Source of the DNA: Daphnia pulex
Taxonomy: Eukaryota; Arthropoda; Branchiopoda; Diplostraca; Daphniidae
Assembly (NCBI RefSeq): GCF_021134715.1
Contig: NC_060024.1
Location: 13,132,974 to 13,196,973 of the forward strand
Direction: 5' to 3'
Length of the DNA stretch: 64,000 bases
In this document: piece by piece, positions 35,517 to 58,176 of the stretch
Layout of the letters: each line of letters begins with the position of its first letter
How positions within the stretch are numbered: the stretch's first letter is position 1
Program-made: the position numbers and the translations under genes
The notes under the pieces: generated by a model
Database searches by the model: none
Told to the model about the DNA's origin: nothing
What the model saw: only the letters and a program-made list of their open reading frames with translations

Positions 35517-38406
35517 ATGCTATTTAACGTGGCACCGCTATTGGACGGCAGAAACCAAGCTGGGGTTATTCTAGCCGTTTTCTTGGGTTATTACATCAAG
35601 CGACGTTTCTTCACATCCAAAAAGCGCTCTATTAAATGGAAGAACCCCTTTGCTCAAGACTCTAGGTCCCCCTTGACTCCACTGGTTACTGAACAAGAGA
35701 AACGTGATGAAATCTTGAAGAAAGGTTGGAGTATAATCCAGTTCTCGATCCGAGTTATTGCTTAATCCATATGATTTTTATATTTTTATAGCCTTTACCA
35801 AACAGCTTGCCACTGAACACCAATGGGATGCTATAGTTATTGGAAGTGGCATGGGAGGTAATTTTAGTTCTAATGTTTATAAAGGCCCATGTATGTCATT
35901 TGTTGCATTTATTAGGTCTCTCCAGTGCAGCCCTGCTCAGTAAAGCAGGTCTTAAAGTCTTGGTTCTTGAGAAGCACGGCAAATGTGGTGGCGCTTGTCA
36001 CATCTTTAAAGCAGAAGGCTATGAGTTTGATGTTGGAATTCACTATGTTGGGAATCTTACCCGTCACACCCTTAATAAAACTTTGTTGGATCAAATTAGC
36101 GATGGACAAATCCAGTGGGCTCTACTTGGTATAAGGATATTTTCTCCCAACTCACTGAACCTTTTAGAATGTGTTTGATTTAAATTCCTTTTTGTCTTGT
36201 TACGTTTCAGAAAACAATTTCGACCGTGTGATTGTCGATGCCATGTCTCCAACGCAACGCGAATACAATATTCCGTCCGGTCGTGGTGTTTGGAAAAATC
36301 AGCTGATTGAGCAATTTCCCGAAGAGCAAAAAGCCATCGAAACTTTTTTCTCAATGGTCAACAAAGTGACCCGTCAAACCAAAGCCTGGGTTATGGTCAA
36401 AGTGATTCCCATCTGGCTGGTCAAATTGATAAGCCTGTTTGGCTTACCGCGTTTTTTGAGCGACTTTTATGCCCTGGGTGGCCGTACACTCAAAGACGTC
36501 ATTGAGGTTCGAATTAATCTGCGCCTCCTTAATTGCAATCATATCTCTTTAATCTTTATCTTGTTCTTTTCTTATCACGCGTAGAGCTTAACGAAGAACA
36601 AGGATCTACAGCTTCTATTCGCCTACAGCTGGGGAACCTATGGCGGTATAATAATTTATTATATAAAAATTAAATATTAAATATAATTATTAAAATTCGG
36701 TATAATAATTGTTAGAGCCACCGAACCGCAGCAGCTTTGCCCTGCAAGCTCTACTTCACGCTCACTATGAAGACGGTTTGAAATTCAATTACATATAATA
36801 GTTGATTCAACCAGATGTGGCAACTTTTGTTTTGATTGCTAGGGGCTACGTATCCGATCGGAGGAGCTTCAGAAATCCCATATCGAATTGTTCCGGTCAT
36901 TGAACGGGCGGGAGGTCGCGTCCTGATGAAAGCCCCAGTCTCCCAGATTCTCACAGAAGATGGGAGGGTGACGGGTGTTCGTGTGGGCAACAAGGAGAGT
37001 TCCGCAGTCGATATCTTCGCCCCCATAGTCATTTCTGATGCAGGTATAGAGTCGAGACGTAAATGTTTAAGCTAAAGCGCCAGAGGAAAGAGAATGAACG
37101 CCATGGCAACCAAAAAAAAGGGGCCACACAACAATTCGAGTCAACCTAATAATCGATTATCGCATTTCCACGTAAGGCATCCACAACACTCTTATGGACT
37201 TGCTTCCGGAAAACATTGCCAAAACGTCTCCCGCTTGGCCTTTAACCAGTGCAATGAAACCAGGAATCGGTTGCTTGAGCGTTTTTATAGGACTTCGGGG
37301 TACGGCTGAAGAATTGGGCCTCAAAGCCGAAAATCTCTGGGTCTTTACCGACTCTAGCCTTGAAGATGTAACACCCGATACTATATGTTAAAATGGCTCG
37401 GACTATATTTGATGATGTTGGCTCTTTTTAATTCAAATTATAGGGATTTAACAACATTTTCGATGGTAGAACCCTGGATGATGTGCTCTACAAGCCTTAT
37501 CCAGCCTTTTTCGTAGGGTTCCCTTCTGCCAAAGACCCTTCGTGGGAGAGTCGCTATCCAGGTAAAGTTAACTGAGCAGAATTTTGATTGGTTTGGATAA
37601 TGACATCATTCTGGCTGATTAGGCCGCAGTACCATCACGGTCGTGTCGTTCGCCCCGTACTCTTGGTTTGCTCAATGGTCGGATTTGACGGTTAAGAAGA
37701 GGGGCGATGAGTACGATTCGCTGAAAAATGCCATCGGTCAACAAATCATCGATCAAATTACTCATCTCTACCCCGACCTGAAGGTGAGTCACCTATCCAT
37801 TCAGATTTCTATAAATGGTCAGAGCAAAAGGGCAAATGCCGGCTTGATCCCGATTTTTAAACAGACACGTCATCTCACATCTTGATATTGTGCGCGTAGA
37901 ATGCCATCGATTATTTTAGCGTTGGGACTCCAATTACTAATGAGCACTACCTTAACGCCAAAGAAGGTGCCATTTACGGCCTGGAACACGGCGTCGAGCG
38001 TTTCAGCCCGAAACAGGCGTCACTGTTGCGTCCCGAAACCGGCATCGAAGGTATACCACACACACACACTCAGTACATAGTCGTAATGATGATGATGAAC
38101 TTGCTAGTAGACGTTGTCGCCATATTATTACGACTGACTCGAGTGCTCATTTCTTTCAACAACCACTAAATAACCTTATACGGTGTCCCATCCATCAATT
38201 CATTCTACCCTCATCCAGGATTGTTTCTCAGCGGGCAGGACGTGATGTGTTCCGGTTTGGTGTCTGCAATGCTGAGCGGCCTTCTCTGTGCCAGCTCCGT
38301 CTTGAAAACTAATCTTTTCAATGACCTCATTCTATTGCACAAGAAAGTGAAGGCCGCCGCCGCTGCCGCCGCCACGGCTCAAAGCCAACGCAGTAAGGAA
38401 GACTAA
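35517..38406 (+). CDS. RETSAT: All-trans-retinol 13,14-reductase (retinol saturase)
   Basis: An ER-membrane FAD/NAD-dependent oxidoreductase that saturates the 13-14 double bond of all-trans-retinol; it belongs to the phytoene-desaturase-like carotenoid/retinoid redox family. Exons 35517-35724, 35792-35857, 35916-36128, 36211-36506, 36585-36645, 36716-36775, 36843-37043, 37177-37367, 37444-37561, 37623-37783, 37900-38050 and 38219-38406 join in phase to 637 aa (human 610). An N-terminal hydrophobic segment (about 15-27) is followed by the FAD motif DAIVIGSGMGG (82-92) and EKHGKCGGACH. Later come YPIGGASEIPY, FPSAKDPSWE and the C-terminal FLSGQDV that closes the FAD site. The tail has a run of Ala (KAAAAAAATA), absent from the usual family end. 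The donor after 37367 is weak (GAT/gtaaca); it is chosen because it alone keeps phase. Confidence 0.94.
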
Positions 38407-39049: not shown

Positions 39050-40402
39050 TCAGAATAATAAATAATTGTTACTTAGATAGACGAGCACCGTCCAGCAGGT
39101 TAGGCCAACCACCAGTACGTGAAATGTAATTACAAATTCAGACGCAAGTCCACTATTTGGTGGTTTATTCGTCTACAAATTAAAGAAATGGTTCATTTGT
39201 AATGAATTAATTTTGTTTTTACAGCCAAAAAGACTTACAGTAGGTGTTGTAGTCGTTGTTGCCTCGGCCGTCGGCGTCGTAAGAATGCTCGTCGAATTTT
39301 CTTCTTCTTCTGTAGTGTTGAACATTGTTTCAGTAGTTGGTGTAATAATGTCACTGCTGTCGCTGGTCGCGTCAGAACAACTCGCATCCTAAATCATTTG
39401 AAAATAAATAGGTAAAACCTGAACGGAGTAGGAGTCAGTTATAAGACTATATTCACCGTGGATGATAATGTTGTTGGCGGAGTTATAAGCTCGGTGGTAG
39501 TAGAGCTTGGAGAAATGGTTGTAGTTGCCACATTAACGACTTGGACAGGGTTAGCCGCCAGAGTGTTTACCCAAAATACTGTTCCGTTCCTCAGGTAAGT
39601 TGTTCTACAATCGATAATTGTAGGTGATCAAAAAAGAATCAATTTGACTTCTGGTTTTCCAATACCTGAAAGTCACCGATCCGACAAAATATTCCGGCGG
39701 TGTCCAGTAAACCGTTACGAACTGCTTGTCGTCACTGGCTTTATGCGTGACGGCGTTCTTCATCAGTCACGCAATCAAACACAAAAGTGAAATTATTGTA
39801 AAAAACAAAGTTGGGACAACTTATTACAGAATTTGGGATTCCGTTCGAGCAGCTGATGACTTGGCCATCGCTGGGCTGGAAAAACGAGCCAATCGAGTCA
39901 TTGTTTGCGTTTGCGTCGTCATAAGCCACCAGAAAAAAGCCTCCAGCGTCAATCGAATCCACCCAAATGATTATAATCAATATCGGTTTGAGGGGTTATT
40001 TGATAATACCTTAAATAAATGTATACCTTTGAAAGCCATTTCGTTGCCCAAAGACCTTTGTTTGATGGTAAGCCTCAACTGAACGGCGTCAGCACCGCTA
40101 TTGGTTATGACTTTCTATTTGCCATTCAAATTTTAAAAACATTTGCGGTCTAGTTATTATATCTTATTGATTTATAACATTACCTTGTCGGTGTAAGTGA
40201 AGAAGGGGTGATTACCGATTTGCGGTGGCACTCCGTGGATGGATTCCATCGGCGAACAACTGCTGATTGGAACGCTATCGGAAAAACCATTCACATTATC
40301 GGCGCAATGGATTACCAGCCGGAAAACTATGAGCGCTGCAATAACTGTTGATGATGAGCAAGTTGCGTATCGACGTTTAGTTATTACTCCTCGGATCCTC
40401 AT
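39050..40402 (-). CDS. R1: Reeler-domain protein with Thr-rich stalk and membrane tail
   Basis: Likely a secreted, membrane-tethered Reeler protein, related to insect putative defense proteins. Minus-strand exons 40402-40184, 40114-40027, 39940-39828, 39757-39666, 39604-39457, 39388-39239 and 39172-39050 join in phase to 310 aa. A long basic N-region precedes a hydrophobic signal core. The Reeler domain is divergent: SSCSPMESIHGVPPQ, then GFFLVAYDD, ISCSNG and NAVTHK. After FWVN the chain becomes a Thr/Ser-rich stalk of about 90 residues. An extra exon (39239-39388), absent from R2-R9, encodes an acidic part with one Cys (DASCSDATSDSSD, TTEEEENST). The last exon gives a hydrophobic tail, either a transmembrane helix or a GPI signal. 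It is the most divergent and first member of the cluster, opposite in strand to R2. The acceptor before 39940 has a poor pyrimidine tract. Confidence 0.85.
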
Positions 40403-41645
40403 TTTTGTTTTAAGCCAATGCTGGCCGCAACTCTTCCTATTGGGATCTGAGGATCCTCAGGCGTCCTCATCAGGTGCTACATAGATGAACATATTGTGTT
40501 TGATGAGAGCGGATCCATATCTTACGGCAGAACTCATTTACCTGAGTTACCTGATTATGCCAGAAAACTATGGTTACCGCTAGATATCCATCAGGGCGAC
40601 TATCGCAAGGCATTGAGTTAATAGTGGCCATCGACCATGAATATTATCCGTCCAATTTACGAGCGGCGAGGGTGCGGCTACATGATGAAAGCCAAATTGT
40701 GTTTCTCAGCCGGAATCTGTTTGATGATCGGTTGCGGGGTAGTTTAAAAAAAAAAGGAAAACGAAAATGGGATATGAACATGGCCGTTTTTATCTCTCGA
40801 TAGACTCAAGGTTAGTTTATCAATTATCAGCCTTCGGGTTTGGAAAGGTTAGACCCATCACGTGGCCATATATCAGCACAAGCCCCGTGTCATTCACTCC
40901 TATAAAACGTGACTCAACTAGTCGTGGATTTCTACTAAAGTATCAACGGCTGATTGGTGCGGAAAAATTCTGCGAATGTTTTTCATCTTTTAATTGGACA
41001 CGCTAATGAAGTTTTTTCCGTGCCAGATAATTACGTAATGTTTCTATCCATAGTAAAAATAGCGCTGGGAGCGGGCAAAGGTGTATTATCAGACAGCAGT
41101 TTCAACGTTTGTTGACCGGTGGCCGAAAAATCAATCCACTTTGATGATGCACAGACGGCGTCACCGATAACAAAAAAAGACACCTGACTGAAAGCTACCT
41201 TGATTTGTTGACTTGACGATAACGCTATTAGCCAAGCGGCTAGGTATTTATATATAGAAGGAATCTTATCACAAAATATCTCATAGGATATGCGCTATTG
41301 CGCTTATTCTATACGATTTTTACGCTTTCGTCTTACGTGAAGTCAAAGATGAGACACGTGCAAGGCCCTTTTTTTCACATAAGGTTAAACTGACAGGCAA
41401 ACTAGGACTGACTCACCACATATTGCAGCTAACACAAATATAATTTAGAAACTCGTCAAACTGACAATCTGTTGGCGCTATCTGAACTTGCGAGGTTATG
41501 GAGTTATATACTAAAATGAGAGATACATAAAAATCAACTAGAGCCAACGTAGTATATATATGATGCTCTGGTTTTCTCGCACTGCCAAGAGTCAATTAAC
41601 ATCCAGCAGAGAAGAAGCTCCAGCACATTCAGTTGTTTATACACG
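40403..41645. other. Divergent region between R1 and R2
   Basis: About 1.24 kb between start codons facing away from each other. A TATATATA lies at 41553-41560, 93 nt before the R2 start. The palindrome-like GGATCTGAGGATCC is at 40442-40455. Open frames here look non-coding. Confidence 0.5.
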
Positions 41646-42708
41646 ATGTATTGCAAGAACTTGTACACCTGTGCTGTCCTCGGCGCCTTACTCCTGGTGC
41701 TGGCGCCCATCCACCGGGTTAATGGAGAAGAAGAAGGGGCTCCCACTGCCGCCTGTGCTACCATGACTCCTGGACATCCATTCGATCCGCAACTTCTCAG
41801 CTCGGCTCCGTTCAAGACAGAAATTCCGGCCGGGGTATATAATATAGACATGGTCGATTTTCAACTGATTGTTTGACTTTTAATCATCCGGTAAATTAAA
41901 ATAGAACTCGATCCCGATGGGTGACACCGTGAAGATTGAACTACGCGCGCAAAATTCATTAATTCCGTTCAAAGGTGAGTATATACAATTCATGGCGTAT
42001 TATATGAAATGATTTCATTCAAGTTATTCCCTTCGTTCTGTTTTATCAGGTTTCCTTGTGATGGCATTTGACGTGAACGATGATACTAAACCCATTGGCA
42101 CATTTAAACTTCCCAGCGACGGAAAAGTCATCGACTGCCTGCAGGGCGTTGGGGTAAATACGCAAATTGATATACCCGACTTGATTTAATTATAATTAAT
42201 GTGAACTACAACTAAAACGCTTAATTTTTGAAAAAAAAATCAAAAGAATGCGGCTACGCATAAGTGGAATAACGACAAGAAATTGGTGACAATCGACTGG
42301 ATCCCGCCCACTTCAGATTACAAGGGCACCGCCAAATTCATGTTAGAACTCATTCCTAATTGTTTTTGGTCTAATAACTCTTTCTTCAAATATAGTAAAT
42401 ATTAATTATGTTATTGTTCGTATACGTAGGACCACTTACGTACACAACATTTCAACATTTTGGGTCAAGACGGAATCGATTACCGTTTCGTTCGTGGAGG
42501 AAATTACTACAGTAACGACAACACAGGTATAGTTAAATAAACTATGGTTAATTTTTAAGAGAAACAACTCAACTTTTTTTTGTGCCATATTATTCTCATT
42601 CGATTTTCAATGCAGGTTCCGACCACCACCCCGAGTTCAGCCTCGCAATCGAGCAGTATGTGGGTCGGCCTGATTGCCTTTTCCTTGTTGACCTTATTGA
42701 TGCGATAA
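41646..42708 (+). CDS. R2: Reeler-domain protein, probable GPI anchor
   Basis: Predicted secreted, surface-anchored single-domain protein. Exons 41646-41834, 41905-41974, 42050-42153, 42247-42341, 42430-42526 and 42616-42708 join in phase to 215 aa. The signal peptide (about 1-26) is followed by GAPTAACATMTPGHPF, the start of the Reeler domain, then TEIPAG, GFLVMAFD, PIGTFKLPSDGK, a conserved Cys (IDC), NAATHK, FWVKTESITVSFV and a short Thr-rich linker. The last exon ends SSSMWVGLIAFSLLTLLMR, a small-residue site plus hydrophobic tail typical of a GPI signal. At the fourth junction the usual Arg of FRTTY is Met because the exon ends AT before gttaga rather than AG before gt. AATAAA at 42838-42843 is a likely poly(A) signal. 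Confidence 0.9.
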
Positions 42709-43415
42709 GCTTTTTTCAAAATGTCAAGATACACACCTCAGCCTATACTTGACTCTGGCTGTTGAATGTTCTAGTTGATACAATTATAATGAAGCAATCA
42801 TTCGTGTACTTTAAATAGTTCAATTTGTGAACGAAACAATAAAAGCGAGTCCCATTAAAAGCCATCCATTCCATATGTTCTATGTTCTATATAATATAGC
42901 TTATAGCTATATTATTGGCTGTCGCTGTAAAGGTTTCGATAATGCGCAATACTAGTAGCTGAAATATCAATAGGAAAACTATACCGCGTCAACACTTTTC
43001 AGTTATCGATAACCGCAAGATGAATAGCCGCTTTTCAAACAAGGGGAGGGAATGTTATCAATCAGCAGCATTAGATATACGTATCGCACGATTGTGGCAT
43101 CATCCGATGACAAGCGCTTATTTATTTTTCAAACCCGCCCTACATGAGTAGGCTATAATCGTTTCAATGATTTTTAAAAATCCTTCAAGTCATTACTGTA
43201 ACAGATAAGGTCATTCAAGTTGAAAATAATGTCTCTTTTTTCAATCAAGGGTATGTGTTTTAATTATTTCTACCATGAATGGATCATCGTTACACGACAA
43301 TAATTACAGTCACATCATTTACTTACTGTCCATCTCCCACTTTTCTTGGTTTCGGTTGAATATAAATAGAAAAGAGTCTCCGATGAAGGACCAGCTCACA
43401 TCTATAGACATCAAC
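42709..43415. promoter_or_regulatory. R2 3' UTR and R3 promoter region
   Basis: About 700 bp. It contains the R2 poly(A) signal (42838-42843) and, near the right end, a TATAAATA at 43361-43368, 55 nt before the chosen R3 start codon. That position puts transcription initiation after the upstream in-frame ATG at 43383 or very close to it. Confidence 0.55.
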
Positions 43416-44540
43416 ATGTTGGACAACAAGAAATTGACTGCTCCCTTATTCCTGTTAGTTGTGATATCCATCGGCCGGATCGAGGCCTTCCCGAACGGAG
43501 CTCCAAGTTCCGCTTGTACAACCATGAGTCCTGTGCATGGGTACCCCCGATTCCCACCTCAAGTCACTCCATCGCCCTTCCAGACGGAAATTCCGGCCGG
43601 GGTAAAAATACGAAACTGTTTGAAATTTCCAAGAATAATTCAAGTTAGACTGTTTCGCAAGTAATAAAGAATATTCGGGATGAAATTTGATAGGAGTACG
43701 CCTTGATGGATAAGGCAGTGCGACTGGAATTGCGTTCCCAAAACGAAATGTCAAAATTCAAAGGTATAAAGAAATAACTGTTGTTTCAAATCATTCACGT
43801 CTATAACTGATGGGTATAGGTTTCCTTGTGATGGCCTTTGACAAGAACAATGATGCACAGCCAATCGGAACTTTTCAATTGCCCAGCGACGGCAAATTAA
43901 TGAACTGCACCGCAGATGCCCTGGTAATAAGCGATACACATCTCGCAAAACAAAATGAAATTATAAAATGTCAAAATAATCTTAAAGGATGCCGCTACGC
44001 ACACATTCAACAATGAAAAACAGTTGGTGACGGTTGAGTGGATTCCGCCGATGAATTATTTGGGCACGGTCGTCTTCAGGTGAGCATCATTACTCCATCA
44101 GCACACCTTTGAGACGGAATATATGCCAATACAAATGTTTTTGTTTTATTTCACCCGTGCAGGACCACATACGTACAAAACGTTTCCACATTTTGGGTCA
44201 AGACGGAATCGATTGCCGTTTCTTTTGTGGCGGATATTCCGACAGCCAATCCCAGCCAGCCGTCGGTGGCAGTGACACAACCAACGGTAGTAGTACTTGA
44301 ATAATTATGTTTGTTTTCTTTAGCACCATCATATCAGCCGAATTCACATCGTATAAAATCGATTCTTTTGTGTCGCCGTCATTATTATTGTTATATATTC
44401 TGCTGGGTGGATAATAGGTGGCCAACACCCCCAATTCCGCCCCCCATCCATCGACCGGCAGTTTCATATGGGCTGGTCTGATGGCCGCTGCTACCTCGTT
44501 ATTACTTATCCCTTCCAGACAAATTCAACTGTTGGCCTGA
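43416..44540 (+). CDS. R3: Reeler-domain protein with hydrophobic C-terminal tail
   Basis: Exons 43416-43601, 43694-43763, 43820-43923, 43988-44079, 44163-44286 and 44418-44540 join in phase to 232 aa. The signal peptide (about 1-24) ends before FPNGAPSSACTTMSPVHG. The domain then follows the family order: TEIPAG, GFLVMAFDKNN, PIGTFQLPSDGK, MNC, DAATHTF, VVFRTTYVQ and FWVKTESIAVSFV. The linker has repeated Pro/Ser/Val/Thr. The tail (SFIWAGLMAAATSLLL) is followed by a polar end, IPSRQIQLLA, longer than in its neighbours; this may weaken GPI processing or make a short cytoplasmic end. In-frame ATGs exist upstream (43275 and 43383), but the TATA box at 43361 and the family length favour 43416. 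Confidence 0.88.
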
Positions 44541-45592
44541 TGGCATCACCAGGTGCGGACAGCACACGACTGGGCGTGAATTCCAATCGTTCGCGGTATT
44601 TTTTATTCGCGCAACCATGACAACTTTCAAACTTAGCAAAAAGAATGTACTAGCAATGGAATAATAAACATACAATAGCATACCTGAAAGGATACGTTTC
44701 TGTGTGGTTGATACTCGACACCCAATTTCTCCTGCGGTGGGCAACGGTAGGATAATCTACTAAGATTTTTGTCAATTCTGTTTTCCTTGAAGATATAAAA
44801 CATCGGGGTCTCTGCGGTTTTAAACAATATTACGTCCGAAAGCTATGCAATTGTCGAATCCAGGTATTTTTGGCAGCCTGGAAATATGTACCATTTGCAA
44901 TATAGCGGTACTATATATTCACGGTCGTTCGTGAACCACTAATAGACGCAATCACTACAAGACAGGTAATAATATCACCCATATGACTTTATACCGCCTG
45001 TATCCAAAAAGTCCGTCTAGCAAGTGAACTGCTGCGCCATTTCTATCCGCTTCCTTGTATACCTGTACAGTGATACTTTTCTACATTTGGTGTCTGATGT
45101 GTACGCATGAAGAATAAACGAAAAAATCAAATCTGGTTTCTTTTGAATCAAAGCGACGCCCACAACAAAGCTAAAGTCAAACGAAAATTAAAAAAGCGAA
45201 AATTTTGGAAATTGGATATTTTGCCATTCGTTTGAAACTTTGAACCAAAACCCAGAAAATTCACTTTTTGACATTCAGAAAAAGAACAGCTGAATGTCTA
45301 AACATAACCAGGTATAAATGCACTTTGACTCTAATTTTTTTTTGTAGGCTTACATAAAACAATCTTACATAAGGGACTTTTTCTCATCTTCCCCACATAA
45401 ACTAATCCTGCTGCTGCTGCGCTATCTCCTGCGCTTGTGAGACTATCCCTATGACCAACATGGCAGCAATTGTCTACATATACAGCTCGCGTACCATTCT
45501 TTCGTACCCTGGGTTCACATTTGTTATAACTAGACGAACAGAATAGGCGACGGAAGAAAGACCTGCTGCCCGCATAATATTCAGTCTTCAAC
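44541..45592. other. Spacer between R3 and R4
   Basis: About 1.05 kb, AT-rich, with no coding sequence recognised. No good TATA box was seen near the R4 start; a TATAAATG lies at 45313-45320, but it is 280 nt away. Confidence 0.5.
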
Positions 45593-46800
45593 ATGTCGTA
45601 CACCAAGAACGTTCACACCTGCCGCGCTGCTGTCGTCGCCGCTTTTCTCTTGGCTGTGGCATCCATCGGCCGGATCGATGGATCGCCCACTGGAGCGCCA
45701 ACAACAGCCTGTGCCACCATGACCCCCGGACATGGTTTCGATGCGCAACCCACCAGCTCATCTCCTTTCAAAACTGAAATTCCAGCCGGGGTAAATTTGA
45801 AAAGGATTCCAATTCGATGAATTCAATTTTTAGATCAATGATCGTGTCGATTGACTGTTAATGGAATTCGATTGTTGCAAATTCATTTTGATAGGAAAAT
45901 GTGTTGATGGATGAGACTGTGCGACTGGAACTTCGCAATAGTGTCCCTAACGGATTATTGTCGTTCAAAGGTGAGTTTCACAAGTTTGGAAATTTCATAT
46001 CCAAAATGCGTTTGTCCACTTTCATCTTCTTGGGAGCACTTGGAAATGATTGAATGTTGAATTTGCAATATCCATCAGGCTACCTCGTAATGGCATTCAA
46101 CAAGAACAATGCCACCCAACCCATCGGCACCTTCAAACTGCCCAGTGACGGACAGCTAATCGATTGCATTGGTGGTGTGAAGGTAAATCGAATTTTTATA
46201 GAGAATAGTGTAGAAACTTTGAAAATAATCGTATAGCTCATTAGATAGCTGTATATACTGTACTTGATTTTTAATTATTTTTAAATTATCAAGAACGCTG
46301 CTACGCACACATCTAATAGCGACAAGCAACTGGCGACAGTCGACTGGGTCCCTCCAAAAGGCTTCATGGGCACAGTTATTTTCAGGTAACAAATTAACTT
46401 TTTATTTATGTGTGTTCGCATTTGCAGATAAAAACTATGAAGTGTGAAAAATGTCTTTTGCTTCTGTCGAAATTGATTGCTTAATTAAATTGCATTCATT
46501 TGTTCATCATCAGGACAACCTTCGTACAGAATCAGGCGACATATTGGGTCAAGACGGAATCCATCGCCGTCACCTTCGCGATGGCACCAACGGTACGAAA
46601 CCCATACATTATACTATTCTTTCGACTTTTAACTCTTATCAAATCATCTATATCAATTTTTTCATTTTTGCGCCGTCATTATATTTGGACTGATTATTAT
46701 ATAATAGGTTGCTCCAACCGTGCCGAGTTCGGCCTCCCAGCCGGCCGGTATGTGGGCCGCTCTGGCAGTTGCCTCGTTGCTGGCCTTTGTCACGCTTTAA
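45593..46800 (+). CDS. R4: Reeler-domain protein, probable GPI anchor
   Basis: Exons 45593-45790, 45895-45970, 46079-46182, 46294-46385, 46514-46592 and 46708-46800 join in phase to 213 aa. The signal peptide (about 1-30) is followed by SPTGAPTTACATMTPGHGF, then TEIPAG, GYLVMAFNKNN, PIGTFKLPSDGQ, IDC, NAATHTSN, VIFRTTFVQ and YWVKTESIAVTF. The linker is very short (MAPTVAPTVPSS). The tail GMWAALAVASLLAFVTL fits a GPI signal. Two possible N-glycosylation sequons lie in the domain (NNAT and the THTSNS area should be checked). AATAAA at 46981-46986 is a likely poly(A) signal. R4 is the closest to a plain family consensus. Confidence 0.91.
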
Positions 46801-47147
46801 CGATAAGCTCGTCACATCACGCGGTGCTGGCGATAATATGGTATATTATTAAGGCTATGACTTGTGAAATGAGTTTATGATTTTTTCTATATAGCTGATG
46901 TATAATAGACTAAATGGTACACGGACACTCGGTTATATATGTTGTTGCTCTGTACTCGTATCATTTCCGTTTTCACTGAAAATAAAAACCCCTCAAACAA
47001 TACGTCTATAAAACACCCATATAAAACGTTGCAATGTTTTTAACAGCGTTTGGAAATTGGGTTGCGCAATTGGGAAAACTATAACGAGCACAAAGATTAT
47101 AAAAGAATTATTACGTCCCATTATGACGTAATCTATGTGAGGTACAA

Positions 47148-47163
47148 CCAAAAGAGGGCGCTA
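47148..47163 (+). promoter_or_regulatory. CTCF-like binding sequence
   Basis: CCAAAAGAGGGCGCTA matches most positions of the animal CTCF core (CCASYAGRKGGCRS). It lies in the largest spacer of the Reeler cluster. A single short match can arise by chance. Confidence 0.3.
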
Positions 47164-48074
47164 GTAAAGTGTTTTTGAAAAAAATGATAAAATGTTTGTC
47201 TCACGTGAGAAAAGAATAGGTAAAAATGTTGGGGATGATTACTGATTAGGTGACTGCATTTTCTATAGAGTATCGACCGGCGCTCGGTAAAATGTGATGG
47301 ACAACTATAATGAGGAATATTAATATCGTTGTCGATCCTGATTTATGAACGAGTTTGACGCCTTCCGGGTCCGGGGATTTTGTCGGAGAATTCGATAAAA
47401 ATTTGACAATTACCATTTGACATGTGCAAATCATAGTTGATGTTGGTAATAAGAAATCCAGAAGCAATCTCATGATTCAAAGGAAAATTGTCCTACAATA
47501 ATAGTCGATGACGTAACTTTGACTTTGTTTCGCTAATTTTGAACAGCAAAATTAAAATTACGTAACTTCTCAATAATTTGATACAAATTCACGGAGGAAA
47601 CATCCGAGAATAAATTAGCAACGCAGAATAAATATTTAGCAATAAAATTCACGGAGAAATAAATTTGCAACTAAAAATTAATTTAAAAAAAATCGTCACG
47701 TTGTTGTTTCTAGTGGATCCAGAACAATCTATACCTAGTCATCATTCAGATCAAATAATACGCTGACAGAAAAATCAGCTTAAGAGTTATGACGTCTATG
47801 CTGTGGTATAAAGCATCAAACGAATAATATTGTTTTCGAGCTTTGCTAGTTGGTTTCGATCCCGATAATTGTTGCTATAGGGCTTTATTTGTTCAGTAAA
47901 CTGTTTTCCTATGCTGCCGGTCAAAGTGTAAACGAAAGACAACAACATGCTACCTGGGTTATTGCTCAATAATCATCCTAATGAAATTTATTCGGATAGA
48001 AAAAGAGGGGGGGGGGATCACGTAAGCGTCTAGCCAACCGAACTGCTCTCCGTCCGATATCGCCAGCGTTTAAT

Positions 48075-48401
48075 GCGCACGGCACTACCGACCGTTGGTT
48101 ACATGGACGCGATCAAGGATCACGCTGCGCACGGCACTTCCTTGATACTCACGAAATGCTCGTTTCCAACCTCGGATTTTTCCGTTTGCCCGGCAATTTG
48201 AAATAGTTGGCGCCAAAGACAACACGAAATTGAAAGAAAATCGAAGACGATCAAGCGCTTCAATTGAATGAATCGAGATTTTTATTGGCTGCCAATCACG
48301 ATAGAATCAGCATATTATATGGGATCCGAACGTTCCTTGTCGCGGTGACGTTGGGTGTCTAGTTTTGCGCACGGCACGACCGTATTTTGTGCGCACGGCA
48401 C
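48075..48401. repeat. Four copies of GCGCACGGCAC
   Basis: Exact 11-mers at 48075-48085, 48127-48137, 48367-48377 and 48391-48401, all in the same direction, inside a locally GC-richer stretch (about 48010-48420). Spacing is 52, 240 and 24 bp. Confidence 0.75.
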
Positions 48402-49688
48402 GTCTGGAGACGTGACTACACTCCCGAGTCAGGACAGGTATAAGAAAAATGAGATAGTACACGATAGAAAGGGTGGCAAGAGCGTTCGGCGGGTGGTGAA
48501 CGGCTCCGGTGATCGGGATATGGGTTTAGCCCGGCGAGGGGGAATATTTGCTGATGGGAAAGTGAACCTTTCAACTTGATTATTCCACACAAGTTATTTG
48601 AAATCCCCCAGCTCAATAAAGCAAAGGAAAATAGAATAGAATTTTCAGCATCAGGGTGGGCCCATTATTTCCATTGTACTAAAAGGTTCTTCCGGCCATG
48701 GCCGAGGTTAATTATATTTCTTAAAATTGTCGTTTTAATATCGCCACCGACAATCTTAGACAATCAGATACAAAAGGGGAAATTCCGTGTTGAAGAGCGA
48801 CGACACATTTTTGTTGAATTGATGTATTCATGTTGAGGTGTCATACTTTCGCAGGCAGCAGTCGGGCGATCCTGTTGCCGATTTATGGTTAAAGGGAACC
48901 AAGAATCAATCAGAGTCTCATATTAGTCCGAGTATACATGACACATCATCTATATACTTTGACCACCAGATTTGGATTGGCGATTATTTAAGACAACTTC
49001 TATTAATGGGATCCTGTAATGCGAATCTTTCGGTATGAATTATGACATCCAATTATCGTATAGGAAAATCTCATCATGTCCTTTCTATATAGGCCGGATG
49101 ACAAAGAAATCAAGTCAACCTAATATAATTCCAATGGAGGCTGCTGTTTGATCCTTGTCTCCTTGAACCGCGGATCCATGGACCGTCAACTGGATCGCGG
49201 ACTGCTTCCTGCCAAAGTATATGGCGTCTCAACAAGAATATGGGAATGGCTAAACAAAAGTTTTTCGATTTCTTGGAAATTGACTGTGGAAGGTATATCA
49301 AAATAACCAACTGATTTAACATTTTTTTTCATTTCTAGATGATTTAATTCTGCATTAATTCAGGAATGATTTTGATGATGGACGAACCGAGCTAGGATCT
49401 TTATATTAGTTACCCGTAATACATTTCCCCACCAAATCCTATAAAGTTATCTTTTTTATATTACCCTTTTTGACCAAATTTGACGACACGTGCTGAGCAA
49501 GGACGCATTTTTCAAATGGAATCGGATGCCAAAGTCCATCTCGTTCACCATCGCCCGGACATCCACGCGCAGGTAATGAGAGAAGCGGGTGGTTAGCACA
49601 GCAGCCCGCGCTTAACAAACCTTTTTTTTCACGTAGATGAGACCCTGACGACGACTCTATTGTGGCATCACTTATTGGCTTGAGATTG

Positions 49689-49704
49689 TATAAATACTCC
49701 GGGT
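49689..49704 (+). promoter_or_regulatory. TATA core promoter of R5
   Basis: TATAAATACTCCGGGT begins 64 nt before the R5 start codon. R6 has the same TATAAATACTCCGGG at nearly the same distance. Confidence 0.7.
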
Positions 49705-49752
49705 TACACCGATTTGGGTGATCAGTACGTCCCAATACATTCAGTCTGCAAC

Positions 49753-50666
49753 ATGTCTTTTCTCGATGCCACCCTTAGCGCTATCGTCGTCGGTGCCCTG
49801 TGGATTTTGATTTTGGCGCCAGTCGATCAGATCCATGGAACACCAATGGGGGCTCCTATTTCTGCCTGTGAAACCATGACACCTGCCCATGGATACGACG
49901 CCCAAAATTCGGCATCCCCCTTCAAAACGGAAATTCCAACTGGGGTAAAACACAATTAGGATTTTGCAGAGTGAATAATATTTGAGGTTTGATTTTAAAA
50001 TATTTTTTGGCCATTGGGATTTTTAGGAGACCGCCTTCATGGACGACCCCGTCCATCTGGAACTTCGCAGTCTCTCATCCGGAACTTATTTCAAAGGCAA
50101 TTAACAAAGCAGGAATAAATGTTTGTTCATTTTATGATGGTGCTAACTTTTTCCCGTTTGAATGATATTAGGGTTCCTTATTATGGCGTTCGACAAGGAC
50201 GACACTTCGGCCACACCTAAACCCATCGGCACTTTTAAATTGATCGAAGGCAGCGATGGTCAACTCATGGATTGTTCCGGCAAAGTATCGGTAGGCCTAA
50301 TGCGAATTATTTTTTTTTTAATTTACTAAACGACACGCCTAAAAATGTATTAGAATGAATTAATTGAATTTCTGTTATGTGTCACACCCAGACCGCTGTT
50401 ACGCACACCAACAATGTCGTGAAGAATTTGGTGAGGATCGACTGGCAACCACCCAAGTATTACATGGGTACAGCCATCTTCAGGTAAGATTTGTCCATTT
50501 CCATTTAAGATGATTGGATTATACTAATAACTGATAATATTGTTACGTGTAATGCAGGACCACCTTCGTCCAAGACGTTTCCACCTTTTGGGTCAAGACG
50601 GAGTCGATTTCTGTCACTTTTGTGATGCCCGACGGGAGCACCCACGATCCCATGAAAGACGTTTGA
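49753..50666 (+). CDS. R5: Reeler-domain protein lacking the anchor, probably soluble
   Basis: Exons 49753-49944, 50027-50096, 50172-50290, 50392-50483 and 50558-50666 join in phase to 193 aa. The signal peptide (about 1-29) is followed by TPMGAPISACETMTPAHGY and the usual motifs: GFLIMAFDKDD, PIGTFKLIEGSDGQ, MDC, TAVTHTNN, AIFRTTFVQ and FWVKTESISVTFV. The protein stops after MPDGSTHDPMKDV, with no hydrophobic tail; no downstream anchor exon was found before R6. It is therefore likely a secreted form. The second intron starts with GC, not GT (AAAG/gcaatt), the only such intron in the cluster. Other members have GT at this position. Confidence 0.88.
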
Positions 50667-51411
50667 TTTCTCTTGCTGAAATAATCGTCCATCGAACACT
50701 AATAATTGAATTGCAATATCACACATGGGCAAATGGAGTTAATTGATGGATAGAATATACACACCAGCAATAGTTTGGCAAAACAAAAAAAGCAATTCAT
50801 TCTTTTTAAATAATGATGCATAAAATAAACTAAATTCCGGTTAGTTGCGTTTTGAAAAATTAAAACATGAAAATCTAGAGAAATAACTAGACACTCGGGA
50901 AAATCCCTATAAAACCCATAAACTATTTGATTAAATAAGGAGACAAATAAAAATGAGCTCCAAAAATATGAAAAGTTCTGAAACATTTCAATTTCTACTT
51001 TACGACTATGAATTGCATGCCAAAATATGATGGCGTGTTTATATAATGAGGATAATTATATATAGAAGGTAGTCCTAATATCGCTTCATAAATATGTTTT
51101 TCCCATCAATGACCATACAGATAAATTAATAAAATATGTGACTTGTATATGCTTCAAGCAAACAATCAGACGATTATTGCACAACATTTGAGAGTAAATA
51201 GCTTGGACGATGTGAAGAAAAGACGTCAAAGTCCATTTCGCCCATCATTGCTTTCACACCGGCAATGTCAAAAGGGCGACCAGTCCGTATAGCAAGCTTA
51301 GCAATCTTTATTAGAAAGATATAGACGCGCGCGCTACATGAGTGCTGGTATAAATACTCCGGGGAGTTGGACAGACTGGCCAGTTCAATTCACCAGTCAA
51401 ACAACAACAGG
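50667..51411. other. Spacer between R5 and R6
   Basis: About 745 bp, AT-rich, holding the R5 3' UTR and R6 promoter. I looked for a final anchor exon for R5 and found none. Confidence 0.55.
51349..51363 (+). promoter_or_regulatory. TATA core promoter of R6
   Basis: TATAAATACTCCGGG begins 63 nt before the first ATG of R6 and is identical to the R5 box. Confidence 0.7.
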
Positions 51412-52455
51412 ATGATGATGTCGTGCCAAAAGTCAACCGTGTTCACCTGCGCTGTCGCCAGTGCCTTTCTGCTGATCCTGGTGCTGCCCAGCATCCATGG
51501 AACACCAACTGGAGCACCGGCTGCTGCTTGCAAAGATATGACACCTCAACACGGTTACACACCGCAAACCTCTGCATCTCCTTTCAAGACTGAAATTCCC
51601 GTCGGGGTAAGTATATAGGCCTACACACTTGTGATGGATTTGAGTCTTATGAACGACACGATTTTCATAATTGCATTGAAATGTATAGGAGTACGTGTTG
51701 ATGGACGACCCCGTGAAGTTGGAACTACGATCCTCATCTGCTGACACTTTCAAAGGTATTATTCAACAACGAAATGCCCCGCATGTTAATTTCACAATAG
51801 CAAAGTGTGCAAGGGCCCCATCGGTTGAATTGAATATCTGATTTGTTGATTGACTCTGTTACGCAATTTTTTGATCAGGTTTCCTCGTGATGGCGTTCGA
51901 CATAGACAACGATTCCAAGCCGATCGGGACTTTTAAAACTCCCGTTGATGACCAGGCTCAACTTATGAGTTGCCCTAGTGATGATGTGGAGGGTACGCTG
52001 GTAAGTGAATCAATCGAATTCAATCAATCAATTCTACAAGCTTTAATTTATTGATTATATCTAACAATTGCAGAATGCTGCTACGCACACAAGTAATTCA
52101 ACCAAGTCCTTAGTAAATCTCGAATGGCAACCACCATTGTATTACATGGGAATAGCCGTTTTTAGGTGAGAATTGATTTGAGATTTAATCTGTTTGCATA
52201 CTTTTTTGTGTAGCTATCTGCTAAATTTAAATATGCGACATGCCAAGCGCTGCGCTATGAATCAAATTTATGCTAAAGCAATTTACGGTGATTTGTTTCA
52301 GAACCACGTACGTGAAAGATGCGATGACGTACTGGACCAAGACGGAATCAATTACTGTTTCGTTCGTCATGGAAATTCCCAATTCTGCCACTAGCCTATC
52401 CAGTGTGTGGGCCGGCCTAGTGGCCGTCTCTTTGCTGGCCTTCCTAATGCGGTGA
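51412..52455 (+). CDS. R6: Reeler-domain protein, anchor fused into exon 5
   Basis: Exons 51412-51606, 51689-51755, 51879-52000, 52074-52165 and 52302-52455 join in phase to 209 aa. Three ATGs in a row start the signal peptide; the first is used here, and 51418 would fit the MS start of paralogues. Motifs: TPTGAPAAACKDMTPQHGY, TEIPVG, GFLVMAFDIDND, PIGTF, MSC, NAATHTSN, AVFRTTYVK and YWTKTESITVSFV. The tail SVWAGLVAVSLLAFLMR is encoded in the same exon as the FR junction, so the last intron of its paralogues is missing and the linker is only about ten residues. The box TATAAATACTCCGGG lies 63 nt upstream. Confidence 0.9.
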
Positions 52456-53488
52456 ACCTTATCACATCCCTCGTTGGTGTAGCACACGTTAAACCCGCTG
52501 CTGAGCACACAAACCCCGTCTACTTCATTTCACGTCATCAGTATTTTCAAGAAAATTTAGTCCCTCATCGTCGCTGAACTGCAGTGCCTTAACATGTTCC
52601 AAATATACAAACAAACGCGCATAATTGTTCACTCGAGAGTCTTTTATCCGTCACCGTCATCTCGTTTTAATACACAATCGCTTCAAGTGACATCAGCAGT
52701 TTTTGGAAAATTGCCCGCGGGACTCGTAGAAGGCTGAACGACAGCAAAAGGGTTCAGAGAAAAATGTGTCGTGTCATTTCTCACCATTGTCTATTATATA
52801 GTTCTCAGCCTTTTCGTCGTCGATGTATAAAAATCTGTTGACACTGGTCACGCGAACAGATTCGAATCATTTCAAAACGCAAGCGTCACCATTACATTAT
52901 AGCGTGCATGGTTTGATCGGGTCCGCCCTTTTCCGCTCGTTTTTAATTTTTTTTTCTCACATTGAAATCACAGGGAATCACGCATACTATGTCCTCCCTA
53001 TATCAATCGGAAAACCAATACCGGTATATACTCAACCGAACGAATAATTCAGCCACTTTGGTTGAGATATTAAATAATTAACCAGCAACCGCGTGCGCTT
53101 TTTGGTGACGAAATGCAAGTTATAGAGGAAACCCCGAAAACCAACTTTCGACATTTTATTGTTATGATGGAATGATAAAGCCGGTTTCACACGATATATA
53201 TAATAGCTGGCGAGAGAGTCGACAGCACACCGCTTCCTTATTATGATATTATATTGTGGAAGGTAAAGGAAAAGAAAGCCACTTTTTTGTATAATTTTTA
53301 TTATTTGGCAATCGCGGGGCTGTGATGAAGGGAAAGTTATATCAAGGGGGTTTAGATGATCAGAAGTTTGATATCCTTAATTCAGTTTAATTTAAATTTT
53401 AGTTCATCAGATTTGGCAGTATGTGGTTTATAGCGAAAGAAGGAATTGTGAGATTTGGTGCTGGAGCGTTTTTTTAAAACTGGAAGAA
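52456..53488. other. Convergent 3' region of R6 and R7
   Basis: About 1 kb between the stop codons of R6 (+) and R7 (-). It marks the point where the cluster changes strand. AT-rich, no gene recognised. Confidence 0.55.
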
Positions 53489-54519
53489 CTATCGCACTAG
53501 GAAAATGAGCAACGAGAGGAAAATCAAGTTGCCACACGTCACACTGACGAACTGTGACGGGGCCAAATTCTTCTTCGGGGTAACAGGAGCCTAACAGAAA
53601 ATTGCAATTAGAATGTTGATTAAAAATATTCATCGTAATCAAGATCGTTCGGTTCTTGTACTGTCGTTGTTGACGCTGTTGACGGTGGGCCGCCGATGGT
53701 GACAGTTTCCGATTCGGTCTTGACCCAAAATGTCATTCTCTCTTTTACAAATGTAGTCCTAAAAATAATTTGATATGGTTAAATAAAACAAATCGCCGCG
53801 CGCTAAAATTATAATATTCACCTGAAGATAACTTGACCGGAATAGTCGGACGGAGGAGTCCACTCGAGCTTGACAGAGGTCTTAGGGGATGGATCGCTAT
53901 GCGTGGCTGCGTTCTAAAACGTTTGTTGGCAATGAATAGTATATAGGCGTTTGAACATGATTTAGTTGCATCATCAAAAGAATGAAACTTACATTCAAGC
54001 CGCTGTGACAGTCAATTAATTTGCCGTTATTGGACTGTTTAAAGGTGCCAATCGCTACGGATGGATTTTTGGTATCGAAAGCCATCACAAGGTAACCTTG
54101 ATAATGGTTCAAATTCACACGGAAAGTATTCCAATAATTATCATATAACCGCAATTGATTTGAACGGGTCGACGTAATTTACCTTTGAATGGATTTTGAA
54201 TATTACTGGGATGCAAGTCCATCATTATGGGAGTGTTGGTCGAAACCATCTCCAAATCAAAATTGCGCCGTTATAATTTGAAATCCCTTATAATTTGTCA
54301 AGAAATCATTCTTGTAGCCTTATTTACCTTATCGGAAACAACCGTCACGAAAGGCGATGGGCCTGTCTGAGGGTCGGGTCCATGGCCGGGTATCATACTG
54401 ATACAGGCCGCTGTAGGAGCTCCACTGGAAAGTCCCTGGACCTGAATGGGCCCGGCCAGGATCAGCAGCAGGACACTGACGGCAGCGCAAGTGAACGCGG
54501 CTTTCATGTTGTACGACAT
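53489..54519 (-). CDS. R7: Reeler-domain protein, probable GPI anchor
   Basis: Minus-strand exons 54519-54328, 54249-54183, 54096-53993, 53913-53822, 53758-53662 and 53590-53489 join in phase to 217 aa. The signal peptide (about 1-26) is followed by LSSGAPTAACISMIPGHG, then GYLVMAFDTKN, AIGTFKQSNNGK, IDC, NAATHSD, VIFRTTFVK and FWVKTESETVTI. Exon 5 ends after SSTTT-type residues (STASTTT) at a GT donor; at 97 nt it is the same length as exon 5 of R2 and R8. The last exon ends in CGNLIFLSLLIFLVR, an anchor tail. If that donor is skipped, the frame reads on to a TAA at 53620 and gives an acidic soluble end (PNDLDYDEYF). Confidence 0.86.
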
Positions 54520-55007
54520 GTTGAAGACTGGCGATGCTTGGCTGACTTGAGCTCGATTACAATGACATTCCCGTAAGACCACTTCCTCAATTTTGAGTTT
54601 TTACACTATAGGTACTACTACCAAATCAAAGGAAACTAGTGGTAGATTAACAGTTTGAATTTGGTGTCTGGAGCTTGGTTGGAAATGTGAGGTTTCTTCA
54701 GTCGTGCGTGATAAGAACAAGGAACAGTGGATTCTACAATTATTTTATTTCAATCAGTTTTTGTTTGTGGTATCATATTGGTGTCAAAATAACCGCACCG
54801 CCGTTTTATTTGTCGCGCCAATTTCGTTTTTTTTTTAGATTTAAGAAGAAAAGTTTTCAAAAAGGAACAAATGGGATTATAAGCATCAATTATAAAAATA
54901 TGTAGCGTTCACAATTCGCACACAATTTGGCTGCCGGACGTCGGTGCGAATGTCTAGTAGTCTATAGTTTATTAATGCGACGTTGTCATATCCGGATGTC
55001 GGGGTGC
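54520..55007. other. Spacer between R8 and R7 (both minus)
   Basis: About 490 bp containing the R7 promoter and R8 3' UTR. No clear TATA box at the expected distance and no further gene. Confidence 0.5.
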
Positions 55008-56071
55008 TTATCGCACCAACAGGAAGGCCAGCAAGGAGGCGGCTATCAGACCGGCCCACACTGTGCTAGACGACGAGGAACCAGATCCTTTTTGAGTCAT
55101 AGGGGCCTGTTTTTACCAATTCAAATGAAATGCGGAACAAAGAAATTTAATTCAAAGTTTTGTCATTTTTGATCCATTGCGAATTTTCACCTTTGGTGAT
55201 CCTTTGCTGGTTGTTTCCATCACGAACGAAACGGATTTCGACTCCTGCTTGACCCAAAATGTCGACTTGCCTTTGACGAAGGTGGTCCTGAAATGGAACA
55301 ATGGGGATAAAATATTTGCCGTTATGTTTGCCATAAGTTTGTATAGAAAGACCTGACACACTACGCACGAACTCACCTGAAAACAACTTGGCCTGAATAG
55401 TTTTCGGGCGGAAACCATTCAAGCGTCACCGAGCTTTTCTTGACGTTCGTGCTGTGAGTGACGGCATTCTGCTCGCAAAATTACATCACAAATAATGTAT
55501 AGAACGTTATTAATATTCAGTTGAGAATATTAGCATCGATTTATATACCTGCATGCCACCAGGGCAGTCGATGACTTTGACGTCATTGGCGGACTGTTTG
55601 AACCGGCCAATAGGTCTGGGATGGGCCGAATGATCATTTTTATCGAATGCCATGATGAAATAACCTAATAATAACGTTCAGATGCCTGTTCAGATATCTG
55701 CAACGGGATGTTAAGTTACACAGTTATACGTACCCTCGAAAGCAATTTGCGGATCGCTGGAGCGCAGTTCCAGGTGGACGGAATTATCCATCAAGACAAT
55801 TTCCTAATACAAACAAAGATGATTGTCAAACATCACACCAATTACTTGCATCTGTCAAATTTACCCCGTCCATCAGGTGAATGAGAAATGGAGACGGGCC
55901 GAACTGGGCATCGACGCCGTGTTGCGGAATCATGTCGCCACAGGAAACTGTCGGGGCACCATTCGAATATCCTTGGGTCTGTTGAACGGGTGCCAGAATC
56001 AACAGCAACAAGACACTGCTGATGACGGCGGCTGAAGCACAAACGAACGCGGCTTTCCCGTTGGACGGCAT
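55008..56071 (-). CDS. R8: Reeler-domain protein, probable GPI anchor
   Basis: Minus-strand exons 56071-55865, 55803-55734, 55664-55549, 55468-55377, 55287-55191 and 55106-55008 join in phase to 226 aa. The start is the ATG at 56071; a longer frame upstream would need a TTG. The signal peptide (about 1-33) precedes YSNGAPTVSCGDMIPQHG. Motifs: GYFIMAFDKND, PIGRFKQSAND, IDC, NAVTHSTN, VVFRTTFVK and FWVKQESKSVSFV, where the usual Thr of KTES is Gln. A Ser-rich linker (GSGSSSSST) leads into VWAGLIAASLLAFLLVR, a good GPI tail very like that of R6. Confidence 0.9.
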
Positions 56072-56683
56072 GCTCAAGACTGACTTGACGTCCGTCGCCT
56101 ACCTGCCTATAGCTATAGTGCTGTGTGTGTGTGCATGTAGGCTCTATCACAGCCCACCCTCGAGCGCTTTGTTAATAACCATATTTCCTTAAGAAAGATT
56201 TTTGGCCGGAAGGAAAGTTTCTATAAGTATATATGAGGAAATCTTAACTCTCGGCTTTCTACTTCCACCTCGTTAACATTTTCGTGATTCATTTGAAAAC
56301 CAGGAACGTTTTTTGAGCCAGCAATCATCAATGTAGTATTTATTCAAATCTGTTTTGGTGTTATACAAATGTTTCTAGTTTTTTTACCTGTATAATGTTC
56401 AGACTTTCCATCAATTCAACTGGAAAATGATTTATAGATAATAGCTGAAAACGGATGAATTATATTTGTTAAAAGTTTATTGGTCACATTGACTACCGTC
56501 TCTATTATTATTATTCCGTCGGATCTGTCCATAAGAATTGAAAGTGTACAGTGAACAATTTTTTTCGGGGGGGTTATCCTACATCATCTATAATATTCAA
56601 CTCGCATAACTTATAGAGTTTTCGTGCATTTAGCCTATTATTACAAAAATAATAAGTTGCCGCATCTATTATATAGTTGGTTA
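56072..56683. other. Spacer between R9 and R8 (both minus)
   Basis: About 610 bp with the R8 promoter and R9 3' UTR. No gene recognised. Confidence 0.5.
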
Positions 56684-58176
56684 TTATCGCATCAAAAAGG
56701 TCAGCAAAGAAACGGCGATCAAACCGGCCGAGATACTGCTGGAAGGCGATGAAGATTCCGCTGCTGGCTTCACTGGAGCCTATTAATTCAGAAACAAAAA
56801 CAAACAAACAGTTAATCGAATTAACAATAGCCCTCCCGGCAGCAAACAATTTTAAAAATAAAAATTCAAACCATTGTAGTCATTTTCTGATCGTGATCGT
56901 GATCGTGATGTGATTGTGTTGGCGCTGGCATCGTGGAAGTCGACATGGGCGCAGTGGTGGTGGTTGTTGTTGTTGTCGGTGCTTCGGTAGTTGTTGTCGT
57001 GGTTGTTGTTGTTGCAGCTGGGATTTCCAAAACAAAAGCGACAGCTTTGGATTCCGTCTTGACCCAGAATGTCGCCTTATTCTCCACATAAGTCGTCCTG
57101 AAAGAAATTCGAAAAACAAAAAAAACAAGCCCACAGATTGAATTAGGTCATTTTTATCCATAGGCACGTCTGCGTATTACTAAATAATAATAATCCGAAT
57201 TTCGCCCAGACCCCAAGTCAGGTATTTATAGACGGGCGGGCCCTTGAGCCAAACAGCTGTAGCTGCTGTACACACACAGCCGCCCATGGACAATTGGTTG
57301 TATTGCAATGCGCCAAATATTTCTCACCTGAAGACCACTTGGCCCATGAAGTTTTGAGGTGGGACCCACTCGAGCGCCACTGATTTCTTTTCGAGGTTAT
57401 TCGTGTGCGTGACGGCGTTCTATACAAACGTACAGCAAACAAACAAACGAAAAGAGAAAGAAAGACATCACGATTAGCACACAGTCGGGGAGGGGGAAAC
57501 GGGCTAAACCCATTAGACGCAAATTGAAATGAGAGACTCGTATACCATTAGGCCACCTGAGCAGTCAATTAGTTTGCCGTCCACCGGTTGTTTGAAGGAC
57601 CCGATGGGTTTAGACTCGTCGCTCTTGTCGAATGCCATCACGAGGAAACCTGTTGCACAGCACGATGAAAAAAAAAAGATGAATTTAAGTATTATATCAT
57701 CATTCTTTTATTTGGGCTGGGGGGCGGCCATGTCCTTCGAGAAAAGTCAAAATGGTTGCCGGGAATAATCATTTAATAATCAAGACACAACACACGATGA
57801 TATTGCGCATATTACCTTTGAATCTATTCACGCCGTTCAGTTGGGGACGCAGCTCGACTCGCACTGAGCCGTCCATCACTACCGTCTCCTGTCAATTGCC
57901 ATAATATCGTCGAACATAGACGAGTTAAAACATGAGCCGACACTTTTGCGTATAATATCAACGGAGACAATTTGAATTTACCCCGTCGAGAAGCTCCGTC
58001 ATGAAAGGAGATGCACTTGTCTGTGGGCTGGGTCCGTGGCCGGGCGTCATGGAGGCGCAGGCCGTCGTCGGGGCTCCATTGGGAAATCCTTGAATCAGGT
58101 GAATGGGGGCCAGGACCAGCACCAGGACCACACTGACGGCAGCACAGGTGAATGCGGCTCTCTTGCTGTACGACAT
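56684..58176 (-). CDS. R9: Reeler-domain protein with mucin-like stalk and His/Asp cluster
   Basis: Minus-strand exons 58176-57982, 57888-57816, 57649-57546, 57419-57328, 57097-56872 and 56779-56684 join in phase to 261 aa. The signal peptide (about 1-29) precedes FPNGAPTTACASMTPGHG. Motifs: GFLVMAFDKSD, PIGSFKQPVDGK, IDC, NAVTHTNN, VVFRTTYVE and FWVKTESKAVAFV. Exon 5 is 226 nt instead of 79-124 nt in R2-R4, R7 and R8, because it adds about 45 residues: two runs of seven to eight Thr, then TSTMPAPTQ and the cluster HHDHDHDQ. The Thr runs look like an O-glycosylated stalk; the His/Asp cluster could bind metal. The final exon gives a Ser-rich linker and ISAGLIAVSLLTFLMR, a GPI-type tail. The donor of exon 5 (ATG/gtttga) is weak but phase-correct. 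Confidence 0.89.

Follow-up and report, generated by a model that had tools for sequence, protein, structure and literature searches.

In the shrimp Litopenaeus vannamei, three Reeler genes (LvReeler1-3) are induced by Vibrio, knock-down of LvReeler leads to higher mortality and a higher bacterial load in the gills, and recombinant LvReeler inhibits Vibrio at 30-60 uM (PMC12113285). PcReeler of the crayfish Procambarus clarkii binds microbial polysaccharides and suppresses biofilm, according to the summary given in PMC12113285, and PIXR of the tick Ixodes scapularis acts on bacteria at the gut surface and limits biofilm, as described in the available portion of PMC5543126. For Daphnia itself, the accessible part of PMC12102780 reports that a family named 'putative defense protein 3' is under selection in D. 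galeata (p 0.0032) and expanded in D. magna (N = 1), and the main text of that paper contains no instance of the word Reeler; the name 'defense protein Hdd11' is tied to the Reeler domain in the available text of PMC5126049. The initial annotation of the DNA described here had pointed out that the Reeler family includes immune members, which agrees with the antibacterial action of the shrimp and crayfish Reelers (PMC12113285). Its further suggestion that the system may be undescribed in this animal group is not supported, given these crustacean proteins and, as far as the accessible part of that source goes, 'putative defense protein 3' of Daphnia (PMC12102780).

Here we describe a cluster of Reeler genes in Daphnia pulex, which we read, with a probability of roughly 60%, as a lineage-specific tandem expansion of microbe-binding Reeler proteins of the Noduler/PcReeler type, mostly turned into cell-surface forms. 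The name 'putative defense protein 3' is used elsewhere for Reeler proteins, and the Daphnia family of that name is likely to be the genes of this cluster. Nine gene models, A to I, exactly fill positions 39050-58176 of the window (the whole 64,000-nucleotide stretch analysed, contig C8, 13132974-13196973), from the end of gene A (-) at 39050 to the start of gene I (-) at 58176, with A on the minus strand, B-F on the plus strand and G-I on the minus strand:

Gene A, 39050..40402, minus strand: 7 exons, 310 aa; signal peptide, Reeler domain, T/S/P-rich stalk of ~100 residues and hydrophobic C-terminal tail (spliced model and Pfam).
Gene B, 41646..42708, plus strand: 6 exons, 215 aa; exon 6 (42616-42708) encodes a GPI-type tail.
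Gene C, 43416..44540, plus strand: 6 exons, 232 aa; exon 6 (44418-44540) encodes a hydrophobic tail and, after it, a longer hydrophilic end.
Gene D, 45593..46800, plus strand: 6 exons, 213 aa; exon 6 (46708-46800) encodes a GPI-type tail; Reeler E 7.5e-32.
Gene E, 49753..50666, plus strand: 5 exons, 193 aa; without hydrophobic tail; intron 2 is GC-AG (50097-50171).
Gene F, 51418..52455, plus strand: 5 exons, 207 aa; the last intron is absent, so that exon 5 also encodes the GPI-type tail.
Gene G, 53489..54519, minus strand: 6 exons, 217 aa; exon 6 (53590-53489) encodes a GPI-type tail.
Gene H, 55008..56071, minus strand: 6 exons, 226 aa; exon 6 (55106-55008) encodes a GPI-type tail.
Gene I, 56684..58176, minus strand: 6 exons, 261 aa; T-rich stalk of 68 residues; GPI-type tail in exon 6 (56779-56684).

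All nine spliced models are uninterrupted reading frames from ATG to stop codon and predict proteins of 193-310 aa, each with an N-terminal hydrophobic signal stretch. The Pfam Reeler profile (PF02014) scores above cut-off in every one of them (best E 4.1e-35), and the match in gene D spans profile positions 1-131 of 131. The core exons are shared, with phases 0,1,0,2 for introns 1-4 in 9/9 genes, and 43 of the 44 introns are GT-AG, the exception being the GC-AG intron 2 of gene E. Because of the Pfam scores and the common phases, chance resemblance among the nine genes can be excluded, and the initial annotation was right to describe nine intact Reeler paralogues forming a local tandem expansion. 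Upstream of the ATG, an initiator-like TCAGTY lies 12-17 bases away in five of the nine genes (B, D, E, H, I), and of 2157 other ATGs, 40 have a similar TCAGTB within 25 bases; the sequence TATAAATA is found at -55, -64 and -69 in genes C, E and F, respectively.

The cluster unit is larger than the nine genes noted first. Searches of the species' own genome (133.19 Mb, 13 contigs) with the Pfam family and two cluster proteins as queries, supplemented by tblastn over fetched stretches, gave at least 30 Reeler loci, 24 of them on C8 (nine inside the window and 15 outside it) and six elsewhere (three on C5 and one each on C9, C10 and C11). Since these counts are built on own-genome searches, they are lower bounds. 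At least 19 loci lie within ~205 kb of C8 (12,985,790 to 13,191,149), ten of them between 12.986 and 13.118 Mb, beyond the nine in the window. Two weak matches (E ~0.02), at 225-287 of locus L039 and at 48812-48865 (-) of the window, were dropped from the count. Five of the 21 outer loci were submitted as proteins to Pfam and all five contained the Reeler domain; many of the outer spliced models, which come from an automatic aligner and have unreliable 3' ends, follow the same exon plan as the cluster. A divergent Reeler exon on C5 at 8.129 Mb (L028, E 2.5e-12) is off this common plan and may belong to a larger multidomain protein. As for the surroundings, a Helitron-type mobile element with DUF6570, Helitron_like_N and PIF1 helicase domains extends over three reading frames at 4642-10795 (+) of the window, a gene of the flavin-dependent amine-oxidase/NAD-binding type (PF13450, PF01593) lies just left of the cluster at 35837-36178 (+) and on, and a Sema-domain gene is located left of the Reeler region, at ~12.976 Mb on C8.

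To place the nine genes among the others, we built a tree from 29 of the 30 loci, leaving out the partial C5 8.129 locus. Cluster membership required one label change on this tree, compared with a mean of 7.8 in shuffled data, and none of 500 shuffles was as low; the branch uniting the nine genes is weak (support 34/0; present in 36% of 200 bootstrap trees), which counts against the reading that we prefer. The closest relatives are same-strand neighbours, with support of 94/89 for E/F and 88/99 for G/H/I. Synonymous differences (ps) among the nine genes are 0.57-0.86 over 36 pairs, and because synonymous sites are thus near saturation, we regard the nine copies as old duplicates. Elsewhere on C8, the loci at 12.9858 (L038) and 13.1180 Mb (L039), 132 kb apart, are 95.5% identical over 2.16 kb (dS 0.03) and share a further 587 bp at 91.8% identity, and this pair is a recent duplication within the same region. 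Some exons are unusually alike, such as exon 5 of genes B and C (synonymous difference 0.20). Gene conversion between copies was considered and rejected as unproven, since none of the 28 pairs tested gave a significant run (lowest p 0.089). The age of the copies and the lack of a significant conversion run both fit ordinary tandem duplication with drift or subfunctionalisation, in which the copies would differ in place or time of expression and bind the same ligand with no recognition arms race, and the tissue expression of the shrimp Reelers does differ among paralogues (PMC12113285). We consider this alternative rather unlikely, and the selection tests bear on it in both directions.

The near-saturation of synonymous sites led us to use site models in place of pairwise dN/dS (of the 36 pairs, 22 have a finite dS and give omega values of 0.09-0.34; the other 14 have no finite dS). 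The models M0, M1a, M2a, M7, M8a and M8 were run with our own code, not PAML, on genes B-I, gene A being left out as saturated, and they compare paralogues rather than alleles. Overall omega is 0.228 (M0, genes B-I), and the Reeler core is mostly under purifying selection. This low value counts against the reading that we prefer and speaks for drift or subfunctionalisation, as does the comparison of M1a with M2a over 142 codons of genes B-I, the set to which M2a was confined, in which positive selection was not significant (p 0.41). On the same 142 codons M8 improved on M7 (p 0.002) and on M8a (p 0.011, ~10% of sites at omega 2.2), and on a 95-codon set, from which every column within three of a gap had been removed, the corresponding values were p 0.0004 and p 0.001, with 8.8% of sites at omega 3.4. 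The M8a/M8 statistic for the 95-codon set (2dlnL 10.86) was reached by none of 58 null simulations (18 + 20 + 20, drawn from the 95-codon M8a fit; largest 7.85), which argues against drift, whereas the 142-codon value of 6.42 was reached by 3/58 of these same simulations, drawn from the 95-codon fit, and is borderline. Because 3/58 simulations pass the nominal 5% threshold, the M8a/M8 test is not badly inflated. Sites with a posterior above 0.7 are 68, 76, 88, 89, 126, 133, 135 and 138 in D numbering; they lie near the ends of conserved segments and, judging from the alignment, probably in loops. Taken with the negative M2a result and dS near saturation, the evidence for positive selection at some Reeler sites is suggestive.

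The alignment has 29 invariant columns, among them two cysteines that could pair, and gene D is 30-58% identical to the other eight proteins. The core motifs had been described as held with little change; the quoted motifs are indeed present, but they have diverged in gene A (FFLVAYDD, SIGSF, FWVNT), whose Reeler domain is the most divergent of the nine. Beyond the domain, the stalk that precedes the tail varies from ~12 to ~100 residues with 40-62% Thr/Ser/Pro (its limits were cut roughly, and in genes A and C it takes in some tail). A hydrophobic C-terminal tail is found in eight of the nine proteins, with a mean hydropathy of 2.03-2.39 over 15 residues and an onset 15-24 residues from the C-terminal end; in gene E the C-terminal hydropathy is 0.84 and the protein ends shortly after the domain. 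Seven of the eight tailed genes encode the tail on the last exon of a six- or seven-exon plan, the tail of gene F lying within exon 5, and in a comparison of genes B and I the tail-encoding exon 6 shows 80% identity over 66 bp (E 2.4e-10). A constant ectodomain with variable stalk and anchoring, as initially proposed, is therefore right in outline, with the tail conserved and its loss in gene E as the exception. The stronger wording, that everything after the domain is remodelled, stands for the stalk and fails for the tail, since a hydrophobic tail kept in 8/9 proteins leaves free remodelling of it unsupported.

The tails of B, D, F, G, H and I match the pattern expected of a GPI-attachment signal, a call made from hydropathy and position alone. 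Gene C is atypical for GPI in having an extra hydrophilic end, and gene A, also atypical, could have a transmembrane end. Judged by these features, all eight tails probably fix the proteins to the cell surface, and gene E is predicted to be the only fully secreted member of the nine. Because of its GC-AG intron and lost tail, gene E may be a released form, or it may be starting to decay. The unlike stalk and tail states of such close copies as E and F also speak against drift or subfunctionalisation. For the 15 outer C8 loci, tails were judged by splice enumeration without a null, and the calls are weak for that reason; the same procedure missed the tails that had been modelled by hand in C, G, H and I, and its top candidate for B was a false tail. 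It gave a stalk or tail for the C8 loci at 13.0039, 13.0640, 13.9105, 10.9049 and 10.8848 Mb, read-through stops just past the domain for 12.9954, 13.0009, 13.0623, 12.9858 and 13.1180, and no call either way for 13.0513, 13.0586 and 11.9642, while the aligner models of 13.0254 and 13.9103 contain a stalk or tail. On these predictions, several outer loci seem to have T-rich stalks and tails, and anchored and released forms appear to be present in the same genomic cluster.

Reeler domains also occur in non-immune proteins, such as reelin and spondin, and the cluster could instead encode surface or matrix proteins related to these (adhesion, cuticle, gut lining) and expanded for a structural role. 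The solved structures nearest to the cluster proteins are those of the reelin-N domain of Spondin-1 (three distinct sequences, E 4.7e-5 to 9.9e-5), and the T-rich stalks resemble mucin-type surface coats, both of which are in line with such a role. We nevertheless judge it very unlikely, because Reeler is the only Pfam domain above cut-off in the nine proteins, and a single-Reeler layout is that of the arthropod immune members and unlike the architecture of spondin or reelin. A fourth structure match (2dng, E 0.045) and a Hamartin match in one member (E 0.0088) were taken as chance.

In the reading that we prefer, a tandem expansion of microbe-binding Reeler proteins, the tail would be a GPI-attachment signal, and because it is read in this way, most copies are proposed to sit at the cell surface, on epithelia or haemocytes, with gene E released. 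The Reeler domain would bind microbial surface polysaccharide, as its crayfish, moth and tick relatives do, and binding at the cell surface is, by this analogy, the most likely mechanism. Its outcome would be microbe capture, aggregation or an anti-biofilm action there, and the ligand range would have been widened by duplication and loop divergence, which is the weakest step. A more far-reaching version, which we hold to be unlikely, is that at least 19 genes in 205 kb form a GPI-anchored, mucin-stalked Reeler receptor array on Daphnia epithelia or haemocytes, in which the fold is fixed and the loops (D numbering 68, 76, 88-89, 126 and 133-138) diverge under positive selection, making a germ-line repertoire of microbe traps with gene E and the tail-less loci as soluble versions.

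Compared with the described systems, LvReeler1-3 and PcReeler are like the cluster in being crustacean, in combining a signal peptide with one Reeler domain and in having several paralogues (PMC12113285). They differ in that the shrimp proteins (143-159 aa) stop where the domain does and have neither stalk nor tail, whereas 8/9 cluster proteins have both; in that three genes are reported in shrimp and at least 30 loci are found here; and in that antibacterial action is shown for the shrimp and crayfish Reelers (PMC12113285) and is a prediction for the Daphnia cluster. A domain spanning nearly the whole of a soluble protein, the layout common to Noduler, PcReeler and LvReeler, fits only gene E and not the other eight. 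The insect proteins Noduler, Hdd11 and BmReeler1 are likewise secreted and single-Reeler and are immune-induced, as far as the available text of PMC3616906 and PMC5126049 goes, and the six insect species tabulated in the former have 1 to 3 Reeler genes with at most four exons and no tail. PIXR also belongs to a paralogous arthropod Reeler family, with seven paralogues, three of them with a signal peptide; these are secreted, and no tail is mentioned in the available portion of PMC5543126. 'Putative defense protein 3' is a defence family of the same genus as our cluster, and the accessible part of PMC12102780 mentions neither a cluster nor tails. Judging by the listings of the literature searched, we found no report of a Daphnia Reeler cluster, of a GPI-anchored Reeler protein, or of a large Reeler cluster with surface tails. 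The cluster thus looks like a known immune protein family that has been enlarged and modified, not like a new one. The arthropod Reeler defence proteins in the cited literature are few and soluble, whereas the Daphnia set is large and, by prediction, mostly surface-anchored, and the picture of the family is corrected in that anchored and released forms appear to occur together in one genomic cluster. Daphnia is a main model of host-parasite coevolution, and such a set would make a clear, testable candidate locus for bacterial recognition at the gut or gill surface.
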